Positions 11,573 to 13,077 of a stretch of 64,000 bases of DNA are shown here, piece after piece. Within the stretch, counting starts at the first letter, position 1. Each line of letters opens with the position of its first letter. The stretch comes from Planctomycetaceae bacterium. Its GTDB lineage: Bacteria; Planctomycetota; Planctomycetia; Pirellulales; Pirellulaceae. A model generated the notes under the pieces. The model did not search any database and had not been told where the DNA came from. It worked only from the letters and a program-made list of their open reading frames with translations. The translations under genes were made by a program, and so were the position numbers. The stretch covers positions 188,355 through 252,354 of the forward strand of contig PBNZ01000031.1 of assembly GCA_002723275.1 (NCBI GenBank). Direction: 5' to 3'.

Positions 11573-12217
11573 TTAATCCACCTTGAGGAATTGTGAACGA
11601 TAGACCGGCAAGTCGTGAAGTCGCATGCGACGTTCGAAATGAGTTCGATAATCCAGGTCGTGAGACGATGGCGATTCTGCGACCGCGATCGGCCCCTCAA
11701 ATGGCAATCGTTGCTTGAGCAATTCTAAAGCTTCATCGAAGTACTCCTGAACATCCGTCCAGAAGTGAAGGTAGCCGCCCGGCTTGAGAATTCGATGGAC
11801 ATCCCGCAAAAACGACTCATTCATGATGCGACGTTTACGGTGTCGTTTTTTCCACCAAGGGTCGGGGAAATAGACATGGGCTGCGTCTGCCATTTCAGCA
11901 GCCAGATGTTCACGGAGAAACTCTTCTGCATTTCCATGAATCATCAGCCCGTTCTCGCAGCCTGATTTCGCGAGGCGAGCAGCAGCGAATCTCGCGTACT
12001 TCCCCGCGATTTCGATGCCCACAAAGTCGCGGTCGGCATGGTCACGCGTCGCTGTCGACATGAACAGGCCTTTGCCACAGCCGATCTCGATCTCGATTGC
12101 TGCTTCGCGCCCGAAAAATTCAGTCGCAGAGAAGGGCGGTGTTAAATCTTTCAACTCGCGGAAATGACCCGAAAGATCTAGCTCCGGATCGGTTTTTCGA
12201 AGTGCTCGTCTGCCCAT
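11573..12217 (-). CDS. trmB: tRNA (guanine-N7-)-methyltransferase
   Basis: 214 residues. SAM-binding motif IEIGCGKGLF (about 41-50) and the hallmark segment VYFPDPWWKKRHRKRR (about 114-130) identify the TrmB family, which methylates G46 in the variable loop of tRNAs. The C-terminal HFWTD segment also matches. The gene is 31 nt downstream of the dehydratase gene, in the same direction, and probably the last gene of a unit that begins with the small basic gene at 12906-13004. A hairpin terminator follows. Confidence 0.95.
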   Translation of the reverse strand: MGRRALRKTDPELDLSGHFRELKDLTPPFSATEFFGREAAIEIEIGCGKGLFMSTATRDHADRDFVGIEIAGKYARFAAARLAKSGCENGLMIHGNAEEFLREHLAAEMADAAHVYFPDPWWKKRHRKRRIMNESFLRDVHRILKPGGYLHFWTDVQEYFDEALELLKQRLPFEGPIAVAESPSSHDLDYRTHFERRMRLHDLPVYRSQFLKVD

Positions 12218-12248: not shown

Positions 12249-12776
12249 TCATTCCGATTCGCGGTTTCGAATCGCTGATTCTAGGGCGGCAATCGGAAGA
12301 GGTATTCCTTTGATCTTTCCACCCACGACGATGCGATCCTTCACGAAGCCCTGGAATTCACAAACAATCATGCGACCACGGCGAGCCTTGATGAGTTCCG
12401 TCATGATGTAGAGGCGATCGCCAGGAAGTACCGGGTCTCGAAAACGTACATCTTCCAGACCGCCAAAGCCAACCATCTCGCTTCCCAGCAGATCATGTTT
12501 CTGCGTGTAGTACGATGCGAGCTGAGCTGCTGCTTCGCACATGATTACGCCGGGCATCAATGGCATGCCTGGCATGTGTCCGCGTACCCAAAATTCATCC
12601 TCGGACGTGTCTCGGTAACCGATGCAGCGATGATGGTCCGTGTTCTCATGGACAATCGCCGTCAACTGCTCCATCTCGAAACGCTGGGGATTGAAACTTC
12701 GTATCGTTTCTATATCAGAGATGACCGTTGTCAGGTCGATGCCTGTAAGATCGAATAGAAAACCCTTGGAATTCAC
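12249..12776 (-). CDS. FabZ-like (3R)-hydroxyacyl-ACP dehydratase, hotdog fold
   Basis: The hotdog dehydratase signature is clear: catalytic histidine in RGHMPGMPLMPGV and the acidic residue in MCEAAAQLA, followed by the DVRFRDPVLPGD strand pair. FabZ-type enzymes remove water from hydroxyacyl-ACP in fatty-acid elongation. I choose a GTG start at 12776, because CCCCTC at 12783-12788 reads GAGGGG on the coding strand 6 nt away; this gives 175 residues, close to FabZ plus a short N-terminal part. An ATG at 12875 would add 33 residues without a ribosome-binding site. The N-terminal part is longer and less conserved than in E. coli FabZ, so another acyl substrate is possible. Confidence 0.85.
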   Translation of the reverse strand: MNSKGFLFDLTGIDLTTVISDIETIRSFNPQRFEMEQLTAIVHENTDHHRCIGYRDTSEDEFWVRGHMPGMPLMPGVIMCEAAAQLASYYTQKHDLLGSEMVGFGGLEDVRFRDPVLPGDRLYIMTELIKARRGRMIVCEFQGFVKDRIVVGGKIKGIPLPIAALESAIRNRESE

Positions 12777-12905
12777 TTCGGTCCCCTCTGTATCCGAGAG
12801 TGTGTTCGTATCCGAGCAACCTACGGTCTCAGCCAATGGCCTCGGGGCCGACTGAGTTGCAGGTCGCAGGGGCATGACGCGTGGTCTACGATCCTTGGCA
12901 AGGAA

Positions 12906-13004
12906 CTATGTTTTGATCGATTTTCGCTTGGACTTGCGCGCCTTCGCATTGGCGGGGCGTTTGCCGTGATTAGCCTTCTTAAGCTTGCGCCGTGGCTTCG
13001 TCAT
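12906..13004 (-). CDS. 32-residue basic protein, bL37-like candidate ribosomal protein
   Basis: ATG at 13002-13004, TAG at 12906-12908; AGGAG lies 8 nt upstream, the best ribosome-binding site in this cluster. The product is 32 residues, with 16 Lys/Arg and no acidic residue. It contains KKANHGKRPAN (residues 9-19). From memory, this closely matches the C-terminal part of bL37, a 24-residue protein seen in mycobacterial 50S subunits that ends in KANHGKRPN plus one residue. The gene precedes the FabZ-like and trmB genes in the same direction. It is too short for common gene callers. That it is a real gene seems likely; its ribosomal role is inferred from the motif. Confidence 0.7.
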   Translation of the reverse strand: MTKPRRKLKKANHGKRPANAKARKSKRKSIKT

Positions 13005-13077
13005 TTACGAATCTCCTACGAATATCTTGCAACTTGAGGGAATCTCGGAGGATACCATTTCGACGTCCCATTGAGAA

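Follow-up and report, generated by a model that had tools for sequence, protein, structure and literature searches.

The window analysed here, the whole stretch of 64,000 nucleotides of DNA from a Planctomycetaceae bacterium, contains on its minus strand a 32-codon gene for a member of the bL37 family, and the product is very probably a structural protein of the planctomycete large ribosomal subunit that occupies the bL37 pocket. Its presence on the ribosome we infer from relatives solved on ribosomes, among which the mitoribosomal protein mL102 is unexpected. The gene itself is ordinary; the link to mL102 and the patchy distribution of bL37 are the parts worth a second look.

The gene, its product and its family

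The intact 32-codon open reading frame described in an earlier note is present with the minus strand as its coding strand, the start ATG lying at 13004–13002 and the stop TAG at 12908–12906 (Table 1). The plus-strand reading of 12906–13004 is a different frame, and plus-strand searches gave no match. The letters 5' of the ATG are gtAGGAGattcgtaaATG, which contain a good Shine-Dalgarno site 8 nt from the start codon, in agreement with the strong ribosome-binding site claimed in the same note. The 32-residue product, MTKPRRKLKKANHGKRPANAKARKSKRKSIKT, is as extremely basic as had been stated, with 15 basic residues (10 K and 5 R), zero acidic residues and a pI of ∼12, and it contains the motif KKANHGKRPAN.

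Table 1. Features of the bL37 locus, with positions in the window.
Feature	Position	Strand	Basis or remark
bL37 gene, 32 codons and TAG stop	12906..13004	minus	full-length NCBIfam NF047429 match
Shine-Dalgarno AGGAG, 8 nt ahead of the ATG	13013..13017	minus	direct reading
Core ANHGKRP, codons 11–17, common to mycobacterial bL37 and Tetrahymena mL102	12954..12974	minus	alignment, PDB matches
Basic C-terminal tail, codons 18–32, missing from the 24-residue mycobacterial bL37	12909..12953	minus	AlphaFold2, bL37 chain comparison
FabA-like (FabZ-type) dehydratase gene, next downstream	12249..12875	minus	syntenic neighbour, outside the ribosomal interpretation
Methyltransf_4 (TrmB-like) gene, second downstream	11573..12217	minus	syntenic neighbour

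The product matches the NCBIfam model NF047429 ('ribo_Plancto_bL37', '50S ribosomal protein bL37', an equivalog with a curated cut-off of 40 bits) over residues 1–32 of 32 with 63.4 bits and E 1.8e-17. Nothing in the window protein departs from this annotated family, of which it is an ordinary member, and the NCBI model would give it a name. The identification as bL37 in the earlier note is right, but the NCBI curators arrived at it earlier, and because NCBIfam already has a planctomycete bL37 equivalog, the idea of a planctomycete bL37 is not new. The bL37 name of NF047429 probably itself derives from similarity, and among the open-access papers searched none combines 'bL37' with 'planctomycet'. 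Against the mycobacterial bL37 model NF047428 the window protein scores 20.5 bits, under the curated cut-off of 30 bits, in a match that covers only residues 6–17, the core. Corynebacterium glutamicum, a control for that model, exceeds the cut-off; Caulobacter was rejected as a carrier, its match at E up to 0.1 having gone at 0.01, and is attributed to chance. A Pfam search with the window protein returned no family, and a plasmid search for the gene returned no match.

Conservation and gene neighbourhood

Lack of conservation of the frame in relatives, which would have spoken against the reading in the earlier note, was looked for, and 56 of the 59 other genomes in a set of 60 carry the gene. 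Each of these genomes, and the window's own (57 of 60 in all), has one match over the NF047429 cut-off; the next-best match to the window protein in its own genome is at E 0.63. In the three genomes without bL37, drafts of 290–430 contigs, no match to the window protein is better than E 0.7. Selection by the regular expression ANHG.R[PA], an ATG as start codon and an upper length limit of 60 yielded 170 distinct genes in 204 loci, and 139 of them encode 32 residues (range 29–40). A GGAG, GAGG or AGGA lies upstream of 116 of the 170 genes, against a mean of 19.6 and a maximum of 31 over 200 shuffles. Over all pairs of 139 genes, leaving out the 7 motif codons used for selection, the synonymous share of single-nucleotide codon differences is 82.7% (74,873/90,566), against 23.4% expected, and purifying selection on the frame is strong. 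A short frame of biased composition might have been open by chance, but 57 of 60 genomes carry it, change outside the motif is largely synonymous and Shine-Dalgarno sites are in excess, which refutes that reading, and we give it a practically negligible probability.

Among 28 diverse bL37 sequences, residues A11, N12, H13, G14 and R16 are invariant and P17 is found in at least 90%. Such invariance across classes is unlike antimicrobial peptides, and it bears on the reading that the product is mainly a cationic antimicrobial peptide whose ribosomal kinship is secondary. The composition does resemble that of cationic peptides, and in disk assays described in the available text of PMC10085706 the bL37 of C. 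acnes inhibited the growth of S. epidermidis and S. aureus but not that of E. coli. An MMPL-family transporter gene also lies upstream in the window, on the minus strand, with the bL37 ATG 158 nt after its end; however, such a gene is found upstream in only 3 of the 30 loci of the 60-genome set and 6 of the 73 loci from a scan of genome contigs (80 loci minus 7 dropped in extraction and de-duplication). Moreover, the sequence, as read, lacks the hydrophobic stretch that a signal peptide needs. An antimicrobial peptide is therefore highly unlikely, and a ribosomal protein remains the preferred reading.

Downstream of bL37, 30 nt after its stop, lies the FabA-like gene, which has this position and orientation in 28 of the 30 loci of the 60-genome set (own included) and in 57 of the 73 contig-scan loci, and elsewhere in 8 of 26 loci (L037–L064), 2 of 15 (L090–L104) and none of the 25 that come from other classes. 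The Methyltransf_4 gene is near bL37 in 16 of the 30 loci (1.5 kb flanks, own included), in 55 of the 73 and in 0 of the 25. Synteny fades across the loci while the gene stays, and the peptide is therefore conserved where its neighbourhood is not. That none of the window's five neighbours was found beside bL37 in the 25 other-class loci, and that no ribosomal protein gene lies beside bL37 in the window, can be held in favour of a different function, that of a conserved small RNA-binding protein with the bL37 core acting off the ribosome or transiently on it, for example as an assembly or hibernation factor of the 50S subunit that uses this pocket. The indirect route by which ribosomal residence is reached here also leaves room for such a factor. 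Set against it are the two solved relatives, bL37 and mL102, both modelled as parts of ribosomes, and we consider it improbable beside a structural bL37.

Relatives in solved ribosomes

With the window protein as a single sequence, phmmer against the PDB gives a weak match to mycobacterial bL37 (7kgb, E 0.16). In the profile search of the PDB the best match is instead mL102 of the Tetrahymena thermophila mitoribosome (6z1p chain AQ, residues 62–89, 34.4 bits, E 2e-7), and bL37 chains follow at E 7e-4 (7kgb), 0.003 (7sfr), 0.035 (5o60, of M. smegmatis type), 0.2 (6dzi) and 1.9 (8crx), the last being outranked by an unrelated phospholipase A2 at E 0.85. A short chain that stops at the core limits the bits that mycobacterial bL37 can earn, and the rank order is thus no proof of closer kinship to mL102. 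These sequence and profile searches of PDB chains bear out the earlier statement that a core is held in common with mycobacterial bL37, the match in KANHGKRP being real, and a small size and a highly basic composition are likewise common to the planctomycete protein and to mycobacterial and C. acnes bL37.

The core appears in mL102 (6z1p chain AQ) as RNARPPKKANHGARPCSSVMRRLKKKYF. Over 22 residues, 14 are identical between mL102 and a planctomycete member from family f34 and 11 between mL102 and the window protein, and residues 62–89 of mL102 align with nearly the whole planctomycete peptide. The two differ in that mL102 has 109 residues and a C-terminus that reaches the A-site tRNA; it is described as sitting between the central protuberance and the L7/L12 stalk, in a mitoribosome without 5S rRNA (PMC7326499). 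The bL37 pocket is described as bounded by H39–H42, H72, H89 and the 5S tip (PMC5876184, PMC10085706), and C. acnes bL37 as contacting the 5S rRNA tip (PMC10085706). At the level of these published descriptions, location of mL102 and bL37 pocket agree in words, both being on the same side of the subunit. The available text of the Tetrahymena paper (PMC7326499) has 0 occurrences of 'bL37'. The term 'bL37m' occurs in none of the open-access papers searched. The name mL102 also occurs in two papers on plant mitoribosomes; in plants it denotes another protein.

The layout of the planctomycete protein differs from that of mycobacterial bL37, which has 24 residues, with an N-terminal helix of ∼13 followed by a loop (PMC5876184), and which in its PDB chains ends two residues beyond the core. 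In the planctomycete form 10 residues precede ANHGKRP and 15 follow it, and the predicted helix is C-terminal: AlphaFold2 with 30 sequences places the sole helix of the free peptide, whose bound form may differ, at residues 20–29 (mean pLDDT 71 overall and 81 for residues 21–30). mL102 also continues past the core, and in layout it resembles the planctomycete form more than mycobacterial bL37 does. In the proposed arrangement planctomycete bL37 would bind rRNA in the pocket and stabilise it, tying the 5S rRNA to H89 beside the peptidyl-transferase centre, and the 15-residue basic tail, probably helical, would lie on rRNA beyond the pocket. A broader proposal, which we hold tentatively and rate nearly as probable as its opposite, is that planctomycete bL37 and Tetrahymena mL102 form a single family, that of an ancient ribosomal protein with a core that would fill the pocket beneath the 5S tip and a C-terminal tail, absent in mycobacteria, that would run along H89 towards the A site as in mL102.

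The same pocket is filled in Borrelia burgdorferi by an N-terminal extension of uL30, in a structure paper that compares uL30 with mL63 (PMC10618245, as far as its available text goes). That extension belongs to a different protein, and the profile gave no uL30 chain of the PDB at E up to 10. In the available portions of structure papers of 2017 and 2023, bL37 is treated as actinobacterial or as confined to mycobacteria (PMC5876184, PMC10085706, PMC10618245).

Distribution in the Planctomycetota and the rRNA of the predicted pocket

The earlier note had supposed that bL37 extends beyond the Actinobacteria, and judged by sequence it does, given the NF047429 match and members spread over the Planctomycetota. 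Of 294 genomes sampled across the phylum, 82 have an NF047429 match at E up to 1e-3, and in 50 the match exceeds the cut-off. A broader profile, A1, built from 28 diverse bL37 members, finds 90 at E up to 0.01, of which 83 are clear (E < 1e-6), so that the curated cut-off of NF047429 misses 33 of the 83 clear planctomycete members. In both searches the best 26 or 27 candidates per genome at most were scored, and some absences may therefore be false. One genome (G086) has a divergent but real copy. A core-only match in another (G243, E 4e-4) was rejected, since a stop codon precedes its core by two residues and no small ORF lies in that frame, and G075, G149, G155, G211, G228 and G304 (A1 E 0.003–0.009) were left out of the carrier count.

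In the window's own class bL37 is present in 47 of 52 sampled genomes, and the absences fall in families f23 (3 of 3 genomes, one of them, G322, a single contig), f22 (1 of 1) and f21 (1 of 32). Outside this class it is present in 36 of 242 genomes, in ten families. The scan of genome contigs yielded at least 80 loci, titled planctomycete or only 'bacterium' (L106, L171). Among the matches listed, a bL37 gene also occurs in four records titled Candidatus Kuenenia stuttgartiensis (L122, L138, L139 and L158); L138 is the place of contig G043:C28, from a genome of the window's own order, so that the title looks like that of a mislabelled bin.

With at most 27 candidates scored per genome, bL37 was not clearly found in 211 of the 294 planctomycetes; a 50S subunit in that phylum can thus do without it, a point in favour of a factor acting off the ribosome or transiently on it. 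A search for uL30 (PF00327) found nothing over the cut-off in the 294 planctomycetes, where three weak matches stayed below it, but was positive in 13 of 14 control genomes; loss of uL30 is reported for several bacterial lineages in the available text of PMC3353972. Since most sampled planctomycetes show neither uL30 nor bL37, bL37 does not simply replace uL30.

The tip of the 5S rRNA was measured as the stretch between A[TC]GRTA and the last 7 nt up to TAGG, which we take to be helix IV with its loop; the same stretch in E. coli is 21 nt. It is 15–16 nt in 45 of 46 bL37 carriers and 17 nt in the remaining one, and 10–21 nt among 44 non-carriers, 14 of which have 15–16 nt (families f5, f21, f22, f23, f24, f52, f54 and f82); two non-carriers, G040 and G337, may be assembly gaps. 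The 90 genomes come from the best-scored 5S loci plus some sought again, 218 of the 294 genomes having a 5S match and G040 coming from the 60-genome set; the survey loci are L206–L246, L250–L263, L282–L295 and L306–L326. In G077, G225, G233, G241 and G282, five genomes of one class in 1–2 contigs each, no 5S match appeared among the best 71 of 273–525 candidates, probably a limit of the search. Counted by family, which are not independent units, 12 of 13 carrier and 6 of 26 non-carrier families are wholly at 15–16 nt (Fisher p 7e-5). On a 23S tree of 44 genomes, with tip lengths labelled per family rather than per genome, the non-carrier families f44 (14 nt, one genome) and f42 and f63 (20 nt) are nested among carriers (15–16 nt), and f23 is without bL37 yet has a tip of 15 nt. 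By parsimony the presence of bL37 changes at least four times on this tree, and the Fisher value therefore overstates independence.

Exploratory as it is, and confounded by phylogeny, this pattern agrees with a protein in contact with the tip, whose loss would let the tip vary in length. A tip so constrained in carriers also fits a lasting contact, as expected of a structural bL37 rather than of a factor acting off the ribosome. The tip was one of five rRNA segments examined, and its contact with bL37 had already been named in the literature (PMC10085706). A comparison of the C. acnes and E. coli tips, as given in the available text of that paper, indicates that no fixed tip length accompanies bL37 in general.

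For the 23S rRNA, 60 stretches beside 5S genes were taken, of which 4 without 23S and 12 partial ones were dropped, leaving 18 carriers and 26 non-carriers. Mean mutual information with bL37 presence is 0.059 at 213 pocket positions, in ranges that we assigned to the pocket helices, against 0.077 at 2691 others, and the positions that best separate carriers from non-carriers are mostly in variable segments. Because carriers and non-carriers are largely different clades, this null result is no support for the pocket rather than a refutation of it.

On the sequence evidence, the Planctomycetota are a second holding of bL37, uneven within the phylum and with a likely mitochondrial relative. If planctomycete bL37 and mL102 are indeed one family, bL37 would be no actinobacterial speciality, being scattered over bacteria and mitochondria and repeatedly lost, with the length of the 5S tip freed upon loss. 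Since relatives with and without bL37 exist, the role of the pocket beside the peptidyl-transferase centre becomes testable.
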